Source: a virus. Taken from it: a stretch of DNA of 33,283 bases. Where the stretch lies: the IMG/VR virus record IMGVR_UViG_3300025151_000154, positions 1 to 33,283 of that record. The stretch is one strand, 5' to 3'. Positions 3,389 through 28,342 of the stretch are shown here, one piece after another. The notes beneath the pieces were generated by a model. The model had not been told where the DNA came from and made no database searches. It worked only from the letters and a program-made list of their open reading frames with translations. The stretch's first letter is position 1, and the number at the start of each line of letters is the position of its first letter. The position numbers and the translations under genes were made by a program.

Positions 3389-3580
3389 CTATTCAAAATA
3401 TTTATAGACAAGATCATAATCACTAAAATTTTTACAGCTAATAATTAAACCTTCTACTAATTCACCTAATAATTCTTTTTCTTTACCAGTAGCTTCTTCT
3501 ATAGCTTTAGCTAACTTGCCTGGAACAGTTCTATCTCGAGGAAAACGATTTGTTAGTTCTACTGCTTCTTCGTAATTCAT
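3389..3580 (-). CDS. 63-residue acidic protein coupled to the MuF-protease gene
   Basis: Encodes a small, mildly acidic, mostly helical protein (about 13 acidic against 9 basic residues) containing MNYEEAVELTNRFPRDR and KAIEEATGKEKELLGELVEG. No family is recognised. Its start overlaps the stop of the MuF-metalloprotease gene by four bases, so it is translated in coupling with it. In MuF-linked effector systems the gene just downstream is often an immunity or inhibitor protein. A protease inhibitor or immunity role is therefore a reasonable guess, but it rests on position and size only. Confidence 0.75.
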   Translation of the reverse strand: MNYEEAVELTNRFPRDRTVPGKLAKAIEEATGKEKELLGELVEGLIISCKNFSDYDLVYKYFE

Positions 3581-5766
3581 AAAAGTTTTAATGCAGAATT
3601 TAAATTATCATCAACCCATTTATACAGCGAAGGAGCCTTTGTCTGCAATCCATTAGGGTCAAAAATATACATAGTAAATGCTTCAGCAAATTGTTCAAAT
3701 CTATTTTTTCTTGCATAAGTACTTACAAATTTAAAATCTCCTCTAGCACCAGTAAAACTAGAAGCACCAGACCCTTTAAAATGTACCTGATGACCTATTT
3801 CGTGAACCATAGTAGAAAACCACGAAACATCTCGGTTATGTATAGATGTAGTGCTTGGAACTTCTACATTTCTAAAAACATATTTAGATTTATCTCGTAA
3901 ATCTTCATTTAAGATTGCTTTTTTCTGTTTTATAAAGTTTTTTATATCGGTTTTATTCAAAGGTTTTGCTACTTCATATAATTTTGTATTTACTACAGAA
4001 CTTGTTGTAGTTGTATAACCTGAATATCCTTTACCGCAAGGTTTAAGCATATTTCTCATGACTCTTTCAAAGTTTTTACCTTCGCCCTGTCTAATAGCAT
4101 CTTTAACAGCTGAAAAATATTCTAATTGTTCTCTATTATCTGCAGCAGTTTGGAAAACATCAAAAGCTTTTTCTGTAGTTTTTAACTGATCTTTAATAGC
4201 TTTTTTCGAATATCTTCCAATCTGGTTTACATTCCATCTTTCATCACGCATAGCAAAATTATTAATTTGTTTAGTTTTTTTCAAAAATTCACGCATTTTT
4301 TTACTATTTTCTGCAGTTAACCCTCCTACACTTTCTAAACTAGTTAGTGAATCAGAAATCATTTTTTCAGTTCCACCAAACTTAGCTGTATATTCTGCAG
4401 CTTTTTTAGTATCAAAAACTCCAGTAGCTATAGAAGTAAATGGTTTTTCTTTTGTTATAACTGGAGTATCTTTAATAAAAGATTCAGCTTTAACTCTAGG
4501 CTTACGTAATTTTCCATATTTTTTTTCTAATTGTTCTAAAGATAGTTCAGTTCCATCATTTCTAATAAGTTGTCTAATAGCAGTTTGACCAGTACTGCCT
4601 TTTTTTCTTGCTAACCGTCTAAAAAAACGTACGCGGTCTAGACTTCCTAGTGTTTTAATCTGTAATTCTTCATCTTGATTTAAAAGCCAGTCACCATAAG
4701 CCTGATTTTGAGGAACTCTGCCTGTAATACTTGGTCGGGTATCTAAAAAAGTTTCTGGTGGTTTTTCTAGTCCAGGATAATCTTTCTGCAATCCATCAAA
4801 ATCAACCACTGGAACTGTTGTAGATCTGCAATTAAAATGCTGCGGTGGTGTTGGTCCTTTATTATATGCAAACTCTCTACCATCTAATCTTTGACAGATA
4901 GGACTTGTTCTGGAATCTAATGTAGCTACATATTCATATTTAGGTGCTACTTTTTTATTTGCAGCATAAACTGCCTGACTAGCTTCATTTCTAACCTGAT
5001 TAACTGAAGTCCTAACTATAGTCTGAACTTGATAGTTAGCTAATTTAATACTTTCACCGCCACGACTAGCTAAACGTTTTACTGTCTGTTTTCCCATGCT
5101 TCGGGCTGATTCAAATTCTAATTTTCCAACTAATCTTCTTGCTATCTGCTGAGTAGTTTGACCAGAAAAAACTCCAGATCTTATAGCTAAAGCCAGTTTC
5201 TGCTGTTGACCTACTGCTATTCCTCTAAATGCTTTTTCTACAGTATCTCCATTTGGTAAAGTTATTGCAGCACCTTGTCTAGCAGTTAATTCAAATTTAC
5301 CTGAACCAAAATTTATAAAATCATCTTCTGTAAACTTAGAACTGGTAAAAATATTAATTTGCGTAGGATCTGTATAAATTACTGATTCTGCATATTTTGG
5401 ACTAATAGCAACACTATTTATTGGAATATTACCTGAAGCAGTTACTTTTTTTAGTTCATCTACAATAAAATCACGCTGAAGTAAAGCCACACCTTGCAAT
5501 TGACCTTTAAAATCTTTTGCAGATGCTTTTGACCAAGTATTAAGACTATCTTTTGCCTGTTTAATTATTGCTCTAAGTCTTTTTCTTGTCTGTGGAGCTA
5601 CTATTACTGCTTCGCCTGCTTTTGCCTGAGCAATATTTATCTGTTTAAGCTGTTTTGCAGCAGAAATTATTATTTTGTTATAGGTAATAGCATATTCTTT
5701 AGCAACTTTATTACTAAATCTATTTAAATCAATTGTTTCTCTAAAAAATACCTCAGGAATAGACAC
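3577..5766 (-). CDS. MuF-type head morphogenesis protein fused to a C-terminal zinc metalloprotease domain
   Basis: A 729-residue protein. Residues about 185-322 match the Mu gpF / SPP1 gp7 minor head domain: helices with RTSVNQVRNEASQAVY, then YVATLDSRTSPICQRLDGREF and PPQHFNCRSTTVP. A linker of about 250 residues follows. The C-terminal part has HEIGH at 655-659 (HExxH zinc motif, with a second histidine in HQVHF) and EQFAEAF at 691-697, whose E695 sits where gluzincins place the third zinc ligand. MuF proteins bind the portal and sit inside the capsid, so the protease would be packaged and could act during head maturation or be injected. No separate prohead protease is visible. The portal gene lies one base upstream; the small gene at 3389 overlaps its end. 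Confidence 0.9.
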   Translation of the reverse strand: MSIPEVFFRETIDLNRFSNKVAKEYAITYNKIIISAAKQLKQINIAQAKAGEAVIVAPQTRKRLRAIIKQAKDSLNTWSKASAKDFKGQLQGVALLQRDFIVDELKKVTASGNIPINSVAISPKYAESVIYTDPTQINIFTSSKFTEDDFINFGSGKFELTARQGAAITLPNGDTVEKAFRGIAVGQQQKLALAIRSGVFSGQTTQQIARRLVGKLEFESARSMGKQTVKRLASRGGESIKLANYQVQTIVRTSVNQVRNEASQAVYAANKKVAPKYEYVATLDSRTSPICQRLDGREFAYNKGPTPPQHFNCRSTTVPVVDFDGLQKDYPGLEKPPETFLDTRPSITGRVPQNQAYGDWLLNQDEELQIKTLGSLDRVRFFRRLARKKGSTGQTAIRQLIRNDGTELSLEQLEKKYGKLRKPRVKAESFIKDTPVITKEKPFTSIATGVFDTKKAAEYTAKFGGTEKMISDSLTSLESVGGLTAENSKKMREFLKKTKQINNFAMRDERWNVNQIGRYSKKAIKDQLKTTEKAFDVFQTAADNREQLEYFSAVKDAIRQGEGKNFERVMRNMLKPCGKGYSGYTTTTSSVVNTKLYEVAKPLNKTDIKNFIKQKKAILNEDLRDKSKYVFRNVEVPSTTSIHNRDVSWFSTMVHEIGHQVHFKGSGASSFTGARGDFKFVSTYARKNRFEQFAEAFTMYIFDPNGLQTKAPSLYKWVDDNLNSALKLL

Positions 5767-5767
5767 A

Positions 5768-7156
5768 TTAATTATCTTCCTCTGTTGGTTCCATATCTAT
5801 TAATCCACCATTCTGCGTGCTTTCTAATTCTTCTTCTACATTAAAATCATCTCCAAGCACTTCATTTTCTGATAATTGATCTAATAATGTTTTCTGGCTA
5901 ATTGTTCCAGCTGTATAAAGAGCAAGTAGAGCCTGTATTTCTTGAGGTTCTAATCTAGCAGCTAAGAAGTCTCTGTTAACAAAACAGTTACCAGAAGAAC
6001 TTTCATTTAGATATTCAGAATGAAATTTTAAACAATTATCTATTAAATCCTGCATTTGTTGAGCTATAACCTGCATAGTACTATCGCCTTGACTCCGATC
6101 AATTTTTTTAGATTCTGCTGTTTCGGCAGATAATTTTTGACCTAGAACAGCTGCTAGTCCAAGTTCATTAATCTGTTTTTCTAATTGGTTTAATCTTTCA
6201 AACTGGCTGCTATAACTATTACCTGTAGGTTCTATATATTTAGCATCTGATTCACTAGGTAAAGATAGAGCTTCTCCAGGTCCCGCAGAAACTTCTTCTG
6301 CACTTGCAGGAAAACCAAAAAATGCAAGCATAGGTACAGATGAAATATGTAGCTGATTATCTAAATCTGATTGAATTTGATATGCTTTTAAATTTAATTC
6401 TGCAATGTCTGCTAGTGGAGGGCGTGATTCAAATAAACCAGTTCTATTAGCATAAGCAATAGAAAAAGGTATTTTATTTAAGGAAGTAGTTCCTTCATCA
6501 AATAAAGAATATTCACTTTTTTTATTTTTTCTATGAATTTCATATCGACCAGGTTCTAAAACTCTTACCTGTTGTATTACCTGTTCACCATATTTACCTT
6601 TTGGTTCTATTACTTTTTCTAATAATCTTAATTGTGTCAGTTGCCTTGCGCCGTCTATAATTTCAGTTCTCCAACCTAAAATGTCACGCGGAGTATATGT
6701 TACCCAGTAAGGCCTAGTTTTATTTCCTTCTTTCGGTGCATCTACTAAAATTCCTACATGACCATATCTAATAGCTATTCTTGTAGTGTTATAAAGCCAA
6801 ACATTTAAATCATTTCCTTCGAGGTCTACGTCAAATAATTGAAGTCTAACTAAATCAGAAATATCATCTAATCTAATTGGTTTTCTAGTTAACATACCAG
6901 CTAACATTCTTTCTAATCGTTGGTAATATGGCGGGCAAACACTTCGAGCTAATCGCGCATCATAAGAATCATCAGTTTCACGCGGCTCCTGAAAAAGATA
7001 TTTTCTATGCTGTGATCTTATTGAAAAGGTTCCTTCGTTTAAATCTTCTATTAACCCCCAATGGGCAAGCATACGCTGATAAGCAGAATTAGGAGAATCT
7101 ACATCAGAAACTGCTAGAGCAACTGGATTATTATAAATTGATTGAGTGCTATACAC
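5768..7156 (-). CDS. Portal protein, DUF4055-like
   Basis: A 462-residue protein with the size and features of a portal. The N-terminus has FQEPRETDDSYDARLARSVCPPYYQRLERMLAGMLTRKP, the segment I associate with DUF4055 portals. A beta-rich middle carries YVTYTPRDILGWR, and a helical C-terminal half contains NLKAYQIQSDLDNQLHISSVPMLAFFG and GLAAVLGQK..AETAESKKIDRSQGDS, a typical portal stem and crown pattern. The acidic tail ends in EPTEEDN. It forms the dodecameric ring at one vertex, docks terminase and passes DNA. It lies between large terminase and the MuF protein, the standard packaging order. Confidence 0.88.
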   Translation of the reverse strand: MYSTQSIYNNPVALAVSDVDSPNSAYQRMLAHWGLIEDLNEGTFSIRSQHRKYLFQEPRETDDSYDARLARSVCPPYYQRLERMLAGMLTRKPIRLDDISDLVRLQLFDVDLEGNDLNVWLYNTTRIAIRYGHVGILVDAPKEGNKTRPYWVTYTPRDILGWRTEIIDGARQLTQLRLLEKVIEPKGKYGEQVIQQVRVLEPGRYEIHRKNKKSEYSLFDEGTTSLNKIPFSIAYANRTGLFESRPPLADIAELNLKAYQIQSDLDNQLHISSVPMLAFFGFPASAEEVSAGPGEALSLPSESDAKYIEPTGNSYSSQFERLNQLEKQINELGLAAVLGQKLSAETAESKKIDRSQGDSTMQVIAQQMQDLIDNCLKFHSEYLNESSSGNCFVNRDFLAARLEPQEIQALLALYTAGTISQKTLLDQLSENEVLGDDFNVEEELESTQNGGLIDMEPTEEDN

Positions 7157-7180
7157 AGTTTTTCCTCATAATACCACTTA

Positions 7181-8533
7181 CTAATAAATTCTAATACCAG
7201 TTCTGGCACCTGCCCGAGAATAAACCATATTAAATTCTCTATAAATAAGATAACCTAAAGCATCATTCATGTGATCATATCCATTTTGTTTATCAGGATC
7301 ACCTGTTCTTTCATCATAACTTTGAAGTTCTAAACATTCAATTAAGCGTCTGCAACTGGCATGAATCTCCATTCGCACCCGTCCTTTGGAGTTTTCCAAC
7401 ATAGCCTGTACTGTGGCCACTCTGTCTTTAATGGGCGGATTACTTCTGAGCGCCATGCTTGTAAATCCATAACTTTCAAGAATTGCAATATCTGTCTTTG
7501 AAGCGTTGATTGTTGATCTTGCGGAGCCAGAAGCATCAGGATAAATTAATATTTTGTTTGAAGGATAACGCCTACGCAATTCCTGCGCTAGAGCATCAGT
7601 ATCTTTTTGTTTTGAAATTTCATCAATAATATATAATTTTTCTCCTTCCTGCACTCCTATTACGCAGTTACAATTCATAACATTAAAATCTATACCTACT
7701 TTTAAAATTTCATGTATTGGGTCAAAGTGTAATTTATTTATTATATGTTTAGTCCGATCAAATCTTGAATAAACAGCACCAGTAGTTAAGTTAGTAAAGT
7801 TTCCATTTAGATATGCCTGGATTAACTGGGGCGGATAGTTTTCTAATAAAGAATCAATAAAACCTTCTGGTAAATATGGATTATCGCTAGTTTTTGCTTT
7901 TATTAATCTAGTATCTTCTTTAGCATTTTTTTCAAAAGTTTCAAACGCCCAGGAATGACCTTCTGGAGTAGTAGTAGCATAAAATTGCTGGACATTACCT
8001 GATCTTAATCTTGCTAAAGCCATATTCATAGCCTGTTCTGCATCTCGTTTATTTACAGTATCTGCTTCATCAAAGCCTACAGCGCAAAGGTTTTGACCGC
8101 GTAAACGCTGATAAGTAAGAATTGTTCTAAGTAAAATTGTATGGGTTCCTTCCTGAAACGATAAAACATATTCTGGAAGTGGACTAGCTCTAAATGTATA
8201 TGGTATTTCCCATTCTTCTAATAAATCATTCATAGTCCGCATTAAAATATCACGGAGCATAGGAGAAGTAGGTTCAAAAACAGCTGATATATGACCAACA
8301 TTCATAGCTGCAAGCATAAAAGATTTAGATACCAGAGCATAAGTTTTACCTGCACCGAATCCACAAACTAAAGCTAATTTTCTATGTTCAGTATCATCAC
8401 AGAATTTTTCTTGATGCGGTAATAAATTTTTTTTTATCTTAGTTACTACTTCTTCTGCAGAAGGCAGTTCATACATACCATTTCCGCTTAATACATGACC
8501 TTGTTTAACAGAATCTAGAAAACTCACGAGCAA
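7181..8533 (-). CDS. terL: Terminase large subunit (packaging ATPase/nuclease)
   Basis: A 450-residue protein carrying both terminase domains. In the ATPase domain, Walker A is GFGAGKT at 58-64, Walker B is VGFDEAD with D155-E156, and the coupling motif is YATTTPEG at 185-192. The RNase H-like nuclease domain shows its acidic residues at D282 (VGIDFN), D333 (YPDASG) and D424 (HMNDALG). It cuts concatemers and pumps DNA through the portal. The start overlaps the small-subunit gene by ten bases; a second in-frame ATG (M20) is possible, but the overlap favours the first. Length is normal for the family. Confidence 0.95.
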   Translation of the reverse strand: MLVSFLDSVKQGHVLSGNGMYELPSAEEVVTKIKKNLLPHQEKFCDDTEHRKLALVCGFGAGKTYALVSKSFMLAAMNVGHISAVFEPTSPMLRDILMRTMNDLLEEWEIPYTFRASPLPEYVLSFQEGTHTILLRTILTYQRLRGQNLCAVGFDEADTVNKRDAEQAMNMALARLRSGNVQQFYATTTPEGHSWAFETFEKNAKEDTRLIKAKTSDNPYLPEGFIDSLLENYPPQLIQAYLNGNFTNLTTGAVYSRFDRTKHIINKLHFDPIHEILKVGIDFNVMNCNCVIGVQEGEKLYIIDEISKQKDTDALAQELRRRYPSNKILIYPDASGSARSTINASKTDIAILESYGFTSMALRSNPPIKDRVATVQAMLENSKGRVRMEIHASCRRLIECLELQSYDERTGDPDKQNGYDHMNDALGYLIYREFNMVYSRAGARTGIRIY

Positions 8534-8847
8534 AGATCAGCTAATTTTGCAGCAGTATTTATAGCACCAAGAGCAATATGAAACTGGCCTGCGCGTCTAG
8601 CTTCCATTTGTAAAGTAGAACATTGAGCTAATAAATCAGCAATCATTTGAGGTCTTTCAATATCCCAATCTTTTTTAATATCTTCTCTAGCTTTTTTTAA
8701 ATAATTATCAACTGTAGCTTCTGACACCCCCCAGTTTTCTCTAGCATACCTTAAACAATCTGACCTTCTACCACCTGTTGCTATTATCCGAGAAAGCTTT
8801 TGTACTCTAAGATCTATCTCGATTTTGCTTGATTCAGAAGCTGCCAT
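8524..8847 (-). CDS. terS: Terminase small subunit
   Basis: A 107-residue protein with an N-terminal helix-turn-helix: RSDCLRYARENWGVSEATVDNYLKKAR at about residues 28-54, which should recognise the packaging site. A helical C-terminal half (MIADLLAQCSTLQMEARRAGQFHIALGAINTAAKLADLC) is suited to oligomerisation and contact with the large subunit. It lies directly upstream of and overlaps terL, and begins immediately after the methyltransferase stop. Size, order and fold agree, but small terminases diverge strongly, so the identity leans on context. Confidence 0.82.
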   Translation of the reverse strand: MAASESSKIEIDLRVQKLSRIIATGGRRSDCLRYARENWGVSEATVDNYLKKAREDIKKDWDIERPQMIADLLAQCSTLQMEARRAGQFHIALGAINTAAKLADLCS

Positions 8848-17251: not shown

Positions 17252-17407
17252 ATGAAAAAAACTAAATTTCCAGAAAATCCTTATATTGGTAGAATTTTTT
17301 ATGATGGTGAAAAAACCTATGAATATATAACTAATCCTTTTTATAAACAGATTCCAGGAGTAAAACCGCAACCTTGCTGGATTGATATTTCACTAGAGCT
17401 AAAATGA
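17252..17407 (+). CDS. 51-residue unknown protein
   Basis: Reads MKKTKFPENPYIGRIFYDGE then [31 protein letters not shown]. It is rich in Tyr, Pro and Phe and probably a small beta fold. Its stop overlaps the next start (ATGA at 17404). Not recognised. Confidence 0.62.
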   Translation: MKKTKFPENPYIGRIFYDGEKTYEYITNPFYKQIPGVKPQPCWIDISLELK

Positions 17408-17691
17408 CTAAAAAAGTACATTCTTCTGTAAAACTTAAAAGATTAAAAGATATAAGACGCAAAAATTTAGAAAAAAACTTTTTAGATATTCAGCTAAAAG
17501 GACAAGATCACTATGTTTTTATTAAAGAAAATGGCAAAGCGCAGGTAGTATTTGAAGAGGGTAGATGGGTTAAAGAACATATAAAAACAGCAGTAGTTAA
17601 ATTTAATTATGAAATAAGTAAAATAGAAAATTTATTAATTAGAGATTTTAGTGATAGCGAAATAGAAGAATATAATAGAAGATATACCTGA
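17404..17691 (+). CDS. 95-residue basic unknown protein
   Basis: The first 25 residues are strongly basic ([23 protein letters not shown]); the middle is beta-like ([21 protein letters not shown]) and the end acidic ([16 protein letters not shown]). It may bind nucleic acid through the N-terminus. Not recognised. Last gene before the lysine-rich microprotein set. Confidence 0.7.
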
Positions 17692-17696
17692 AAAAA

Positions 17697-17846
17697 ATGC
17701 CATTAAAACGCGGTAAATCTCAAAAATCTATTTCAGCTAATATAAGATTGCTTAAAAAAGAGGGAAAAACTGAAAAACAGGCTATAGCAATCGCATTATC
17801 TAAAGCAGGTAAAAAGAAAACTGCTAAAAAACGTAAAAAAAGGTAA
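17697..17846 (+). CDS. 49-residue Lys-rich protein, [13 protein letters not shown] family
   Basis: Starts [20 protein letters not shown], then [20 protein letters not shown] and a poly-basic tail. The pattern MPLKxGxSxKxISxNI...GxxxKQAxAIAL-xAGK is a widespread small phage and bacterial protein type (recalled), of unknown function and often encoded near capsid genes. The basic tail suggests DNA contact. It begins the set of short basic genes upstream of the scaffold. Confidence 0.75.
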
Positions 17847-17871
17847 GATTAAAACAGCTACTTAATTTGTT

Positions 17872-17940
17872 ATGCCTTCTCACTATGGTTCAATGAAGCC
17901 TAAGGGCAAAAAGAAAAAAAAGAAAGGAGGTAAGAAATAA
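17872..17940 (+). CDS. 22-residue Lys/Gly-rich peptide
   Basis: Reads MPSHYGSMKPKGKKKKKKGG then KK. Its length is minimal for a gene, but the start is plausible, the stop overlaps the next start (TAATG), and similar MPxHYGxMK peptides occur in marine phages (recalled). The codons for Lys-Gly-Gly near its end spell AAAGGAGGT, a Shine-Dalgarno for the next gene. It could be a real peptide, a leader, or both. Confidence 0.5.
   Translation: MPSHYGSMKPKGKKKKKKGGKK
17924..17930 (+). promoter_or_regulatory. Strong Shine-Dalgarno inside a peptide gene
   Basis: AAGGAGG lies nine bases before the ATG at 17940, with a T following to give near-perfect anti-Shine-Dalgarno complementarity. It supports the 17940 start. 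Most starts in the window have no such site. Confidence 0.65.
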
Positions 17941-18044
17941 TGGGTTATATATTTAAAGTTCAAGGTGAATCCAAGCCTAAAGCTGAAAACTGCGAAGTAA
18001 AGCCTAAAGCAACAAAAAAATCTAAAAAATCTAAAAGTGACTAG
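17940..18044 (+). CDS. 34-residue Lys-rich peptide
   Basis: Reads MGYIFKVQGESKPKAENCEV then KPKATKKSKKSKSD. A short strand-like start (YIFKVQG) leads to a disordered basic tail. The Shine-Dalgarno site at 17924 and the overlaps with both neighbours argue that it is translated. Not recognised. Confidence 0.58.
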   Translation: MGYIFKVQGESKPKAENCEVKPKATKKSKKSKSD

Positions 18045-18246
18045 AAAAATGAGGCGCGTGCCTAAAGATAAAAAAACAGGTTTACCTAAAAAATATCTTG
18101 CAGGCGCTAAAAATAAATCTGCAAAAGCAGCAGAAATAAAACGCACAGCAGCTGCTTATAAACGCGGAGAAAAAATAGATTTAAAAGCAATTTCTAAATT
18201 CAGAGCTTCACAAAATGCCAAAAACAAAAAGAAAAAAAAGCGCTGA
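18037..18246 (+). CDS. Small basic protein, conserved phage type
   Basis: Up to 69 residues, starting at GTG 18037 or, more likely by family pattern, at ATG 18049 (MRRVPKDKKTGLPKKYLAGA). It continues KNKSAKAAEIKRTAAAYKRG and ends in a run of lysines. The RRVPKDKKTGLPKKYL...AAEI..TA..YK pattern is familiar from marine and other phages (recalled), of unknown function and located near head genes. Highly basic, so likely to bind DNA or capsid. Overlaps the next gene by 32 bases. Confidence 0.72.
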   Translation: MTRKMRRVPKDKKTGLPKKYLAGAKNKSAKAAEIKRTAAAYKRGEKIDLKAISKFRASQNAKNKKKKKR

Positions 18247-18478
18247 TACACTAACTGCAACGCTTAGTGCTAAAGCTAAAAAATCTATCTATACTGTTGG
18301 AGATTTGCGCAAAGTTTATAAGAGAGGAACTGCTGCTTATATGAGTTCTGGTTCTAGAAATGTCACGGTTGGTGCCTGGTCTATGGGTAGAGTAAATAGT
18401 TTTATTTCGGGTGGAGGTGCTAGAAAAGCTGATATAGATATACATAATGCTCGAAAAAAATCACCTAAGAAAAAATGA
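18215..18478 (+). CDS. DUF5824-like basic protein
   Basis: An 87-residue protein. The centre reads KKSIYTVGDLRKVYKRGTAA, YMSSGSRNVTVGAWSMGRVN, SFISGGGARKADIDI, which I associate with DUF5824: a K-x-GI-x-L-x-x-VY-x-RG-x-AA...W..-x-RVNSF..GG.ARKAD signature. The C-terminus is KKSPKKK. This domain appears in many tailed phages as part of virion or head-region proteins of unknown role. Coupled by overlap to its neighbours. Confidence 0.75.
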   Translation: MPKTKRKKSADTLTATLSAKAKKSIYTVGDLRKVYKRGTAAYMSSGSRNVTVGAWSMGRVNSFISGGGARKADIDIHNARKKSPKKK

Positions 18479-18630
18479 AATTAACTACTAGACAGAAAAA
18501 TGTTTTAGAAAAACATCAAAAAACACATGGACATTCGAAAAAACACATGGAATATATGAAGCGTAAAATGCGCGAAGGTGTTAGCTTTACAGAAGCACAT
18601 AATATGGCTATGAGGAAAAAAGGAAAATGA
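18475..18630 (+). CDS. 51-residue basic His/Met-rich protein
   Basis: Reads MKLTTRQKNVLEKHQKTHGH then SKKHMEYMKRKMREGVSFTE and AHNMAMRKKGK. The LTxRQKxxLxKH...HSKKHMxxMxxxMxxGxSFxxAHxxAxxKxGK pattern is a known short phage protein type (recalled), found near capsid genes and of unknown function. Overlaps both neighbours through ATGA junctions. Confidence 0.7.
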   Translation: MKLTTRQKNVLEKHQKTHGHSKKHMEYMKRKMREGVSFTEAHNMAMRKKGK

Positions 18631-18920
18631 CTGAAAAAGAAAAAATTCAACGTAAATTAAAAAAATATGGTTTAACTGCTGTTAATAAAGCAAAAAAAAC
18701 TCCGAATCACCCTCGAAGTTCTCATGTAGTACTAGCTAAAAAAGGTTCAGAAACTAAATTAATAAGATTTGGACAGCAAGGAGTTACTGGAGCTGGTAAA
18801 AATCCAACAACAAAAAAAGATAAAGATAGAAGAAAATCTTACTATGCTAGACATAATGCACAGAACCCGAATCCTGGTATATTTTCTGCTTTATACTGGT
18901 CTCATAAGGTCAAATGGTAA
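18627..18920 (+). CDS. Basic protein, DUF6321-like
   Basis: A 97-residue protein with KLIRFGQQGVTGAGKNPTTK, DRRKSYYARHNAQNPNPG and the ending SALYWSHKVKW. The RRKSYxARHxA...SAxYWxxKVKW signature is common in tailed phages, often just before the scaffold or capsid gene (DUF6321 in my recollection). It may be an internal head protein. Last of the basic set; a 37-base AT-rich gap follows. Confidence 0.75.
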   Translation: MTEKEKIQRKLKKYGLTAVNKAKKTPNHPRSSHVVLAKKGSETKLIRFGQQGVTGAGKNPTTKKDKDRRKSYYARHNAQNPNPGIFSALYWSHKVKW

Positions 18921-18957: not shown

Positions 18958-19632
18958 ATGACCGAAGAACTACAAAAACCAAATCCTTCACCTGAACAAT
19001 TTGCAGCTTTACAGGAAGAATTACAGAAATTAAAAGCTAATAATGCAAAATTATTAGATCAGAATATAAAAGCTAAAGAAGCAGGAAAAGCTATTCCTCC
19101 AGATGTTGATGTAAATGCTTTGATAGCTTATAAACAAAAAAAAGAACAGGAAGAACTGGAAGCTAAAGGTAGATATGATGAAGCTGTAGCTAAACAGGCT
19201 CAACAATTTAGAGATGCAGAAGCAGCATATAAAGAAAAAATAGAAAAATACGAAAAAAGGCAGAGAGAATTAGAAGTTGAAACGCCTGCTATAACTGCTT
19301 TAGCAGATGTAGTACATGATCCTCAGTATGCACTTTCACAAATTAATAAAGAACAATTAACAAGAGAAGCAGATGGAACTGTTGTTATTGTTGATGGATA
19401 TAATAGAACACCATTAAAAGAGTGGGCTTTAAATTTACCAAGCTGGATTCAAAAACACCCAAAACCTCAAGGCGGTGGTGCACCTTCAGCTAAAAGTACA
19501 AATACTACTGAATTTGTTTCTGGAGAAAAAAATCCTTTTGCCCCTGAAACTTTTAATTTAACTGAACAGAGTAGACTATATAGAACAGATATAAATAAAT
19601 TTAATATGTTAAAAAATGCAGTTAACGGTTAA
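18958..19632 (+). CDS. Capsid scaffolding protein (probable)
   Basis: A 224-residue protein. Residues about 10-115 are a long charged coiled coil (ALQEELQKLKANNAKLLDQN, then EELEAKGRYDEAVAKQAQQF and YEKRQRELEVE). The middle has DPQYALSQINKEQLTREADG, and a disordered Gly/Ser segment leads to FNLTEQSRLYRTDINKFNML. The charged coil and position immediately before the major capsid gene are typical of scaffolds that nucleate procapsid assembly and then leave. No protease domain is fused to it. Confidence 0.82.
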   Translation: MTEELQKPNPSPEQFAALQEELQKLKANNAKLLDQNIKAKEAGKAIPPDVDVNALIAYKQKKEQEELEAKGRYDEAVAKQAQQFRDAEAAYKEKIEKYEKRQRELEVETPAITALADVVHDPQYALSQINKEQLTREADGTVVIVDGYNRTPLKEWALNLPSWIQKHPKPQGGGAPSAKSTNTTEFVSGEKNPFAPETFNLTEQSRLYRTDINKFNMLKNAVNG

Positions 19633-19701: not shown

Positions 19702-20739
19702 ATGGCTACATTAAGAAGTGATTTAATCATTCCAGAGGTTTTTACTCCCTACTTAATTGAAGAGACTACTGCGAGAGATTCTTTTCTTCAAAGTGGGGTT
19801 GTGACACCTTTGGCTGAATTAAATCTATCCTCCACTGCCGGGGGCGATTTCGTGAAAATCCCATTTTACAAGGCAAATTTATCAGGCGATTTTGAAGTTC
19901 TAACAGATTCAACTTCATTAACTCCAGGCAAAATTACAGCAGATTCCCAAGTGGCAGCAGTGCTCCACAGAGGGAGAGCATTCAGTTCACGTGATTTAGC
20001 TGCACTTGCAGCAGGTGGCGGACCTGACCCAATGGCTGCTATTGCACAAAAAATGGCTGCTTATGTAAATAACCAGAAACAGAAAGATTTATATTCTTGT
20101 TTAACTGGTGCATTTGGTTCTATTAATGCAAACGATAGTAATTCAGCATTATTTGCTTTAACTATCGATTCTGAATCAGGTGATACTCCAACAGTTTTAA
20201 GCCCACGCCACGTTGCAAAAGCTAAAGCACTTCTAGGAGATCAAGGAGAAAAACTTTCAGCAATTGCTATCCACTCAAATTGCTACTATGACTTGGTAGA
20301 ACGCAATGCGATAGATAGAATTTATGATAATACAGGTGCTCCTGATACAGCAGCTGCTTCAGGTAGTACTGCTAATGCGTTTCCTGGAACAACTTCAATC
20401 CCGACCTTCATGGGGCTCAGGGTAATTGTTTCGGACGATATTCCTACTACAGGATCTGGTTCCAGTACTGAGTATTCAGCGTTTTTCTTTACTCAAGGAG
20501 CTATCGTGACAGGCGAGCAGGCACCAATTAGAACTCAAACAGATAGAGATATTCTTGCTTTAGAAGAAGCAATGGCTGTGGACCTCCACTATATCTATCA
20601 CCCAGTTGGTATTAAATACGCTGTATCTACTGTGAATCCAAACAGAACTGTATTGGAAACAGTAGCATCTTGGTCGAAAGTGTATGAAACAAAAAATATC
20701 GGTATTGTGAGAGCAACTATCGTTTCAAACCAAGATTAA
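19702..20739 (+). CDS. Major capsid protein
   Basis: A 345-residue protein with the usual coat protein layout: N-terminal LRSDLIIPEVFTPYLIEETT, then GGDFVKIPFYKANLSGDFEV, a long helix near 105-125 (PMAAIAQKMAAYVNNQKQKD), SPRHVAKAKALLGDQ, AIAIHSNCYYDLVERNAIDR, and a P-domain-like stretch with GLRVIVSDDIP and EQAPIRTQTDRDILALEEAM. These are the segments of HK97-fold coat proteins encoded after a scaffold. It builds the icosahedral shell. Compared with its neighbours the gene has more G and C in third positions, suggesting selection for strong translation. Confidence 0.92.
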   Translation: MATLRSDLIIPEVFTPYLIEETTARDSFLQSGVVTPLAELNLSSTAGGDFVKIPFYKANLSGDFEVLTDSTSLTPGKITADSQVAAVLHRGRAFSSRDLAALAAGGGPDPMAAIAQKMAAYVNNQKQKDLYSCLTGAFGSINANDSNSALFALTIDSESGDTPTVLSPRHVAKAKALLGDQGEKLSAIAIHSNCYYDLVERNAIDRIYDNTGAPDTAAASGSTANAFPGTTSIPTFMGLRVIVSDDIPTTGSGSSTEYSAFFFTQGAIVTGEQAPIRTQTDRDILALEEAMAVDLHYIYHPVGIKYAVSTVNPNRTVLETVASWSKVYETKNIGIVRATIVSNQD

Positions 20740-27069: not shown

Positions 27070-27644
27070 GTACAGATAAAATTGTTAGTGAATTACAAAG
27101 CACTAATCCATCTGCAATTATTGAATTATTTACTTTAACTTTAGATAATACTTTGCATGGAGCTACAACTACTTATAGATTTCATGCTGGAACAAGTTTA
27201 AAAGAAAATGGAGATATTATATGGGCAGGAAATACATATACTAAATTTCCAGTAGAAGCAGAAGGTTTTAAATATGGAAAAGGTCAGCTTCCTAGACCTA
27301 CATTAACTTTTAGTAATGCTTTAGGAACTATTTCTGCTATTTTGCTTGTAGTAAATGGAGTAACTACCGGAAATGATTTAACTGGAGCAACTGTAGTAAG
27401 AATAAGAACTAAAGCTAAATTCCTTGATGCAGCTAATTTTCCTAGTAATGTAAATCCATTTGGAACTCCTGATAGTACAGCAGAATATAAACAAGAAATA
27501 TTTGTAATAGATAGAAAATCAGCAGAAAATAGAACAGTTGTACAATTTGAACTTGCAGCTGCTATAGATATGGCAGGAGTTCGAGCACCAAAGCGTCAAT
27601 GTACTCGGGCAGAATTTCCTAGTATTGGTTTAGTTACAGGCTAA
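27066..27644 (+). CDS. Minor tail protein, lambda L-like, lacking the Fe-S part
   Basis: A 192-residue protein with IVSELQSTNPSAIIELFTLT, FHAGTSLKENGDIIWAGNTY, FPVEAEGFKYGKGQLPRPTL and QEIFVIDRKSAENRTVVQFE, LAAAIDMAGVRAPKRQCTRA: the recognisable L core. It ends shortly after that motif and has a single cysteine, whereas lambda L is about 40 residues longer and carries an Fe-S cluster bound by several cysteines. The tail tip here may therefore lack the cluster. It is coupled to M and K by short overlaps. Confidence 0.87.
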   Translation: MSTDKIVSELQSTNPSAIIELFTLTLDNTLHGATTTYRFHAGTSLKENGDIIWAGNTYTKFPVEAEGFKYGKGQLPRPTLTFSNALGTISAILLVVNGVTTGNDLTGATVVRIRTKAKFLDAANFPSNVNPFGTPDSTAEYKQEIFVIDRKSAENRTVVQFELAAAIDMAGVRAPKRQCTRAEFPSIGLVTG

Positions 27645-28342
27645 TGTGGAAACAAAAAGCATTATTACATGCAAAAAAAGAAGATCCTAAAGAATCAGTA
27701 GGAGTTTTATTAAATATAAAAGGGAAAGAAAAATATTTTCCCTGTAGAAATTTATCAATGAACAGTAATCAATGTTTTATATTAGATCCTGAAGATTACG
27801 TAAAAGCTGATAATTTAGGCGAAATAATAGGTATAGTACATTCACACCCGACAACACCTCCAGAGCCTTCTGAAGCCGATAGAGTATCATGTGAGCATAG
27901 TAATTTAAAATGGTATATAGTAAACCCTAAGACTGAAACTTGGGGATATTGCGAACCTTGTGGATTTAAACCACCTTTAAGAGGTCGGCAATGGGTATGG
28001 GGATTACAAGACTGTTATTCGTTAGTTAGAGATTGGTATAAACAAGAAAAAAACATAGAACTAAAAGACTGGCAAAGACCAACAACACCAGAAGAATTTT
28101 TATTAAATCCTATGTTTGAACAATGTGCCTGGAGAACTGGATTTAGGGAATTAAGATCAGATGAAAAATTAATTAATGGTGATCTTTTATTTATGTCTAT
28201 AGGTTCTCCTGGATTAAATCATGTAGCTATTTTTTTAGATGGAGATGTTTTACATCATTTAGCAGATAGACTATCTTGTAAAGAGCCATATTCGGAGTGG
28301 CTTTTAAAATGTACTGGTAAGAGGTTGCGTTATGCTTCGTAA
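27644..28342 (+). CDS. Tail tip peptidase, lambda K-like (JAB/MPN plus NlpC/P60)
   Basis: A 232-residue protein with two hydrolase domains. The N-terminal JAB domain has its metal motif E17 (KESVGVLL), H66-S-H68-P, S76 and D79 (SEAD). The C-terminal NlpC/P60 domain has the catalytic C124 (GLQDCYSLVRDWY) and H193 (LNHVAIFLDGDVLHH). It should cut host peptidoglycan crosslinks during entry or process tail proteins during assembly. It is the only recognisable wall hydrolase in the window. Start overlaps the L stop (TAATG); end overlaps the I gene by 11 bases. Confidence 0.92.
   Translation: MWKQKALLHAKKEDPKESVGVLLNIKGKEKYFPCRNLSMNSNQCFILDPEDYVKADNLGEIIGIVHSHPTTPPEPSEADRVSCEHSNLKWYIVNPKTETWGYCEPCGFKPPLRGRQWVWGLQDCYSLVRDWYKQEKNIELKDWQRPTTPEEFLLNPMFEQCAWRTGFRELRSDEKLINGDLLFMSIGSPGLNHVAIFLDGDVLHHLADRLSCKEPYSEWLLKCTGKRLRYAS

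Follow-up and report, generated by a model that had tools for sequence, protein, structure and literature searches.

Seven small genes, which run head-to-tail up to the gene for the head scaffolding protein in an IMG/VR virus record of 33,283 bases (32.6% GC; the whole record was analysed and is called the window below), probably help to build or fill the phage head. The explanation we favour, at somewhat better than even confidence, is that they constitute a translationally coupled accessory cassette of the head-assembly and DNA-packaging module in phages of the P-HS2 type. The gene order of this cassette is seen in dozens of marine phages. The cassette itself is undescribed in the literature searched, which yielded neither proteomics of virions nor expression or mutant data on any of its genes, and most of its members belong to known families without an assigned function.

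The major capsid protein encoded in the window is SPP1 gp13-like (19702..20739, plus strand; PF20036, E = 4.5e-12; phrog_247, E = 1.7e-82) and shares 89% identity with those of the Prochlorococcus siphoviruses P-HS2, MED4-184 and MED4-117, and 64–68% with those of the Synechococcus phages KBS-S-2A and S-H1. The phage is a Prochlorococcus P-HS2-like siphovirus. The gene for the head scaffolding protein (18958..19632, plus strand; phrog_206, E = 2.5e-21) begins 37 bases after the last of the small genes. In P-HS2, MED4-184 and MED4-117, all seven genes recur in an identical order ahead of scaffold and capsid (P-HS2_00042-00047), with 36–96% identity.

The layout further upstream differs. In P-HS2 and most other loci, the genes for terminase, portal and MuF lie directly upstream of the cassette on the same strand, in P-HS2 as one operon, whereas in the window this block is on the minus strand (3389-8847), opposite to the scaffold, capsid and tail genes, and the cassette is preceded by recombination genes and, near the junction, a gene of the T5orf172/MUG113 type. 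A locus from another sample, L008, is collinear with the window from about 13.1 to 31.0 kb and has the same layout ahead of the cassette, which makes an assembly error on this side unlikely. The cassette adjoins scaffold and capsid in the window, L006 and L008 even though terminase, portal and MuF are not upstream; when the head operon is divided, as it is in the window, the cassette stays with the scaffold gene and not with the portal gene. The MuF protein of the window (729 aa; 3577-5766, minus strand) is extended at its C-terminus by a long stretch that contains an HEIGH motif and matches a zinc-metalloprotease (ATLF) profile below the cut-off. In this it resembles the MuF proteins that are said to bring a C-terminal effector into the capsid (PMC6316719). 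In the tail region, the product of a gene at 27644-28342 is a fusion of JAB (Prok-JAB) with NlpC/P60.

All seven genes are on the plus strand, within 17697-18920, and encode products of 49, 22, 34, 69, 87, 51 and 97 aa, after which they are named here. The first, s49 (17697..17846; MPLKRGKSQ...QAIAIAL...KKRKKR), matches phrog_2423 (E = 2.5e-16) and has 43 homologues in nearby loci. It is followed by s22 (17872..17940), by s34 (17940..18044; MGYIFKVQ...), which has 36 homologues at the same position, and by s69 (18037..18246; phrog_38321, E = 6e-34). Next come s87 (18215..18478; DUF5824/phrog_28338; PF19141, 26.2 bits), s51 (18475..18630; phrog_31838, E = 3.7e-29) and s97 (18627..18920; phrog_7595, E = 7e-28), the last a distant DUF5754/Tlr6F-like protein. 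The PHROG matches of s97, s87, s51, s69 and s49 cover nearly the whole length of the proteins (E from 2.5e-16 to 5e-40), in agreement with the initial annotation, which had matched several of the products to small phage families of unassigned role.

That annotation had described eight genes joined by overlaps or short gaps. The junctions are as it described, with overlaps of 1–32 bases and a single exception, a gap of 25 bases after s49; the number is reduced to seven conserved genes, since the supposed eighth, p95 (17404..17691, plus strand; 95 aa), lies outside the conserved cassette, is unrelated and only mildly basic (net +6), lacks a lysine tail and has homologues in L006 and L008 only, among the fetched loci. 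An ambiguity over the length of the fourth product (65–69 residues) is settled at 69 aa by a GTG start at 18037, which is GTG in 42 relatives and TTG in one, leaving out two other entries that are contig-edge artefacts.

Each of the seven is a real gene under purifying selection. Pooled pN/pS ranges from 0.07 to 0.43, and median pairwise dN/dS (30–57 homologues per gene) is 0.12 for s49, 0.018 for s22, 0.16 for s34, 0.15 for s69, 0.24 for s87, 0.08 for s51 and 0.22 for s97, compared with 0.11 for the scaffold, the values for s69, s87 and the tail of s22 being approximate because these overlap neighbouring reading frames or signals. Across loci the gene overlaps are kept (1–62 nt), which suggests co-translation; that between s51 and s97 is 4 bases in 44 loci. 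In five loci (L060, L074, L045, L046 and L081), insertions of 180–840 bases separate s51 from s97. A scan for promoters and terminators found fewer promoter-like sites than in shuffled sequences and no usable late-promoter signal.

A survey of the gene neighbourhood relative to scaffold and capsid, as had been proposed, returned a fixed order. Eighty loci were fetched with the capsid protein, and the region was visible in 37 of them. The order s49-s22-s34-s69-s87-s51-s97-scaffold-capsid recurs across these capsid-fetched loci, with s97 present in 36 of the 37, s49 in 34, s51 in 33, s69 and s87 in 32 each, s34 in 29 and s22 in 24. The wider set drawn from all searches comprised 56 non-redundant loci with a P-HS2-type capsid gene and the region visible, and is enriched for s87, part of it having been fetched with that protein; the scaffold gene is found in all 56, MuF upstream in 51 and s97 in 55. 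No permutation among the seven genes was seen in this set, although individual members are absent from some loci. The exception is L230, a very distant locus (29% capsid identity) with s97 after the scaffold gene.

The cassette is thus of fixed order, and it is also modular. L069, a close relative with a 79% identical capsid protein, has none of it: the gene after MuF is followed directly by the scaffold gene, and no s97 or s87 match occurs anywhere on its 37.9-kb record, so the cassette is dispensable for this capsid type. In three loci of another phage group (L114, L126 and L160), the cassette is found between terL and portal. KBS-S-2A and S-H1 have a 74-aa protein between s49 and s97 (L003, 4717-4941; L004, 4660-4884) in place of s22-s34-s69-s87-s51, matching Hva1_TUDOR in KBS-S-2A. 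The alignments of s97 and s87 show clearly different sequence types, mixed among otherwise similar phages, a pattern that suggests gene-by-gene exchange inside the cassette.

The most direct indications of where a cassette member may act come from s97. In ICP1, gp125, a predicted capsid protease (PMC9040626), has a Peptidase_S78_2 domain at residues 36-160 followed by a C-terminal s97-type domain, and a protein of Aeromonas phage PhAER-3 has the two domains the other way round (s97 domain at 77-150, Peptidase_S78_2 at 175-289). In phage CL131, the s97 domain lies inside a portal and MuF polyprotein of 1,393 residues. The s97 of the window differs from ICP1 gp125 and the XkdF-type Peptidase_S78_2 proteins in being free-standing, with no protease domain. 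An AlphaFold model of s97 (mean pLDDT 83) consists of a helix, a beta hairpin and two helices, and Foldseek matched it at probability 1.00 to ICP1 ORF125, an XkdF protein, a 1,393-aa protein (the length of the CL131 portal) and a Tunisvirus protein, this last a model matched at E = 5e-3 and TM 0.56. Since several different fusions join s97 to proteins that act in the prohead or at the portal, a role there is the most economical explanation. The capsid-internal location once proposed for the whole group is in this way supported indirectly, and for the s97 family, by the prohead-protease and portal-MuF fusions. Among 69 unrelated s97 loci, a PHROG census of the genes up to two positions away found portal in 11, head-tail adaptor in 11, endolysin in 10 and terL in at least 8, and some neighbours were HNH or endonuclease VII genes. 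The relatives found next to portal, head-tail adaptor and terminase genes in unrelated phages include free-standing ones.

Against Pfam, the s97 family gives weak matches to DUF5754 (PF19058; best E = 8e-4) and DUF6321 (PF19846; best E = 2.4e-3). The s97 of the window scores below the curated cut-off of PF19058 (15.5 versus 27.4 bits, E = 0.018), and its best relative reaches 19.8 bits. By these profile scores, s97 is placed as a distant relative of DUF5754/Tlr6F and not as a member. DUF5754 is the Tlr6F family, reported from almost every polinton-like virus, from several virophages and many giant viruses, and from some phages, with no known structure or function (PMC4642659, PMC12220804). Both Tlr6F/DUF5754 and DUF6321 comprise small proteins, which occur in polinton-like viruses, virophages, giant viruses and phages.

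The seven products are strongly basic, with net charges of +17 (s49), +10 (s22), +6 (s34), +23 (s69), +18 (s87), +11 (s51) and +19 (s97), equivalent to +0.18 to +0.46 per residue, and pI values of 9.8–11.7. The 44 other genes of the window have a mean charge of 0.00 per residue, the most basic reaching +0.10. In random codon draws from these other genes, the charge of six of the seven had P values of <5e-5 to 0.0013, and that of s34 had P = 0.023. Nearly all products had been said to have poly-lysine ends; this holds for five of them and moderately for s51, but not for s97, which ends in ...HKVKW. Arginine accompanies lysine in the tails of s49, s69, s87 and s51, and in relatives at 50–53% GC lysine is partly replaced by arginine with the net charge retained, homologues of s49 and s97 at that GC content being richer in arginine and poorer in lysine and still carrying +12 to +15. 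To judge from these substitutions, the basic character is conserved at the protein level.

Extreme basicity that persists in GC-rich relatives, a position in the head operon and the fusion of the s97 domain to prohead-located proteins all favour the idea, put forward in the initial annotation, that the seven products are packaged in the mature virion as internal basic proteins, where they would neutralise and compact the genome as a phage nucleoid. Against it, Foldseek and profile searches found no DNA-binding fold, HU appearing only at E = 0.64; PDB sequence searches with single proteins and profiles gave no meaningful match, and Foldseek of the s87 and s97 models against the PDB returned nothing below E = 0.7. 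Members of the cassette are lost modularly, L069 lacks all of it, and part of the s22 tail doubles as a ribosome-binding site. Tailed phages of comparable size that have a packaging motor (lambda, T7 and SPP1, for instance) are not known to need condensing proteins, which also argues against this proposal. DNA condensation in the virion is compatible with the data and draws no specific support from them, and we regard it as a minority reading that is unlikely to be correct.

Relatives of the cassette proteins also occur at sites with a less evident connection to the head. Pelagiphage HTVC111P encodes relatives of s51, s69 and s87 in successive genes (gp58 corresponds to s69 and gp57 to s51), which lie after a lysozyme gene and not among head genes. 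The genes s69 and s87 are found together in 128 fetched loci, overlapping in nearly all; s69 never occurs without s87, and s87 stands alone in three loci, which are truncated close to a contig end. An AlphaFold model of s87 (pLDDT 78) has four helices, and the protein passes the curated cut-off of DUF5824 (PF19141; 26.2 versus 25 bits, E = 9.4e-6). In T4-like marine phages, DUF5824 is a domain of a 600–650-aa protein, in contrast to the 87 aa of the window protein. The s87 and s97 domains are parts of single proteins in T4-like phages, as in Melnitz, where a cytidylyltransferase-type protein contains both. HTVC008M encodes them in neighbouring genes. No head gene is annotated near the cytidylyltransferase-type protein in the T4-like phages with these domains. 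The idea that s69 and s87 are split halves of one T4-like protein was rejected, as s69 was undetectable there even with an expanded profile.

Relatives of s49 were found in Acinetobacter phage phiAC-1, between the head morphogenesis and head protease genes, in PA11, and in a P22-like phage, directly after the coat gene; the latter also has an s97 relative three genes past the tail accessory factor. Matches of s49 to TAL repeats in the PDB were discarded, as they arose from an 18-residue stretch that is repeated in the target, and no single stretch passed alone.

In SPP1, the slot between the MuF gene (gene 7) and the scaffold gene (gene 11) holds genes 8-10, which adjoin homologous capsid genes and encode products of 382, 112 and 55 aa; they are likened to the cassette by their genomic slot. 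The 2018 re-annotation of SPP1 lists them as moron genes without an assigned function (PMC6316719). An older SPP1 sequence record states that gene 8 is needed for morphogenesis and is absent from virions, a remark that we do not count as support because the later paper leaves the role open.

The fixed slot between MuF and scaffold, the linkage to the scaffold gene and the s97 fusions speak for a function in the head module. The site after lysozyme in HTVC111P, the endolysin, HNH and endonuclease VII neighbours of s97, the cytidylyltransferase-type protein of T4-like phages, the missing cassette of L069 and the contents of the SPP1 slot count against it. These same features, apart from the neighbours of s97, and the modularity seen elsewhere fit a different origin, in which the seven would be moron or host-takeover genes in a permissive late-operon slot, with non-structural functions, for example in counter-defence or in the binding of RNA or ribosomes. 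Order and content are conserved beyond what is expected of morons, however, and the cassette has stayed with the scaffold gene in the rearranged window, while s97 is fused to head proteins elsewhere; we therefore think this origin quite unlikely.

The smallest gene, s22, encodes the 22-aa peptide MPSHYGSMKPKGKKKKKKGGKK and is present in P-HS2, where it is unannotated. Its first twelve codons show synonymous differences throughout and nearly invariant residues. A degenerate DNA pattern for the start of s22 has hits on at least 120 viral contigs; of these hits, 109 fall in newly fetched loci, and each of the 109 has another gene of the cassette nearby. The Shine-Dalgarno sequence of s34, AAAGGAGG (17923..17930, plus strand), lies within the KGGKK tail of s22, giving this stretch a dual use. 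GGAGG precedes s34 in 35 of 37 loci and a Shine-Dalgarno-like sequence in all 37, and the stop codon of s22 and the start codon of s34 are fused as TAATG in 26 of 26 measured pairs. As the lysine/glycine tail of s22 encodes the Shine-Dalgarno sequence of s34, it is partly a translation signal.

The notion that lysine tails in general are mainly a by-product of A/G-rich DNA needed for ribosome-binding sites and overlapping starts, with the charge having no function, takes its support from this KGGKK tail, the overlaps throughout and the low GC content of the genome, but is very improbable and, beyond a partial constraint on the s22 tail, largely refuted, as most other tails hold no Shine-Dalgarno sequence of the next gene (0/29 for s22, 2/45 for s69 and 6/47 for s87), arginine stands beside lysine in four tails, the charge persists at 50–53% GC and basicity is not shared by the remaining genes of this AT-rich window.

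Under the favoured explanation, an accessory cassette of the head module, the seven proteins would be made together with the scaffold and capsid proteins, presumably late in infection. They may then enter or line the prohead interior or the portal vertex, as the fusions and synteny suggest, and would act at the scaffold and portal stage of assembly and packaging. Folded cores would be supplied by s69 and s87 as a pair and by s97 as a separate small domain, and the flexible tails rich in lysine and arginine could contact nucleic acid or acidic partners. Such a role would be auxiliary rather than essential. A broader proposal, which we consider speculative and rather improbable, is that the Tlr6F-related s97 domain is a general prohead or virion-internal factor across unrelated dsDNA virus lineages, and that in P-HS2-type phages it forms a packaged internal complex with the six other basic micro-proteins.

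If the cassette does belong to the head module, several abundant marine-virus families without an assigned function would be tied to head assembly, and these families could be tested together in a cultured model, P-HS2 on Prochlorococcus MED4. The s22 gene shows clearly how standard annotation can overlook a conserved gene. The fusions of s97 to prohead proteases and to portal-MuF offer a concrete lead on what Tlr6F-like proteins do.
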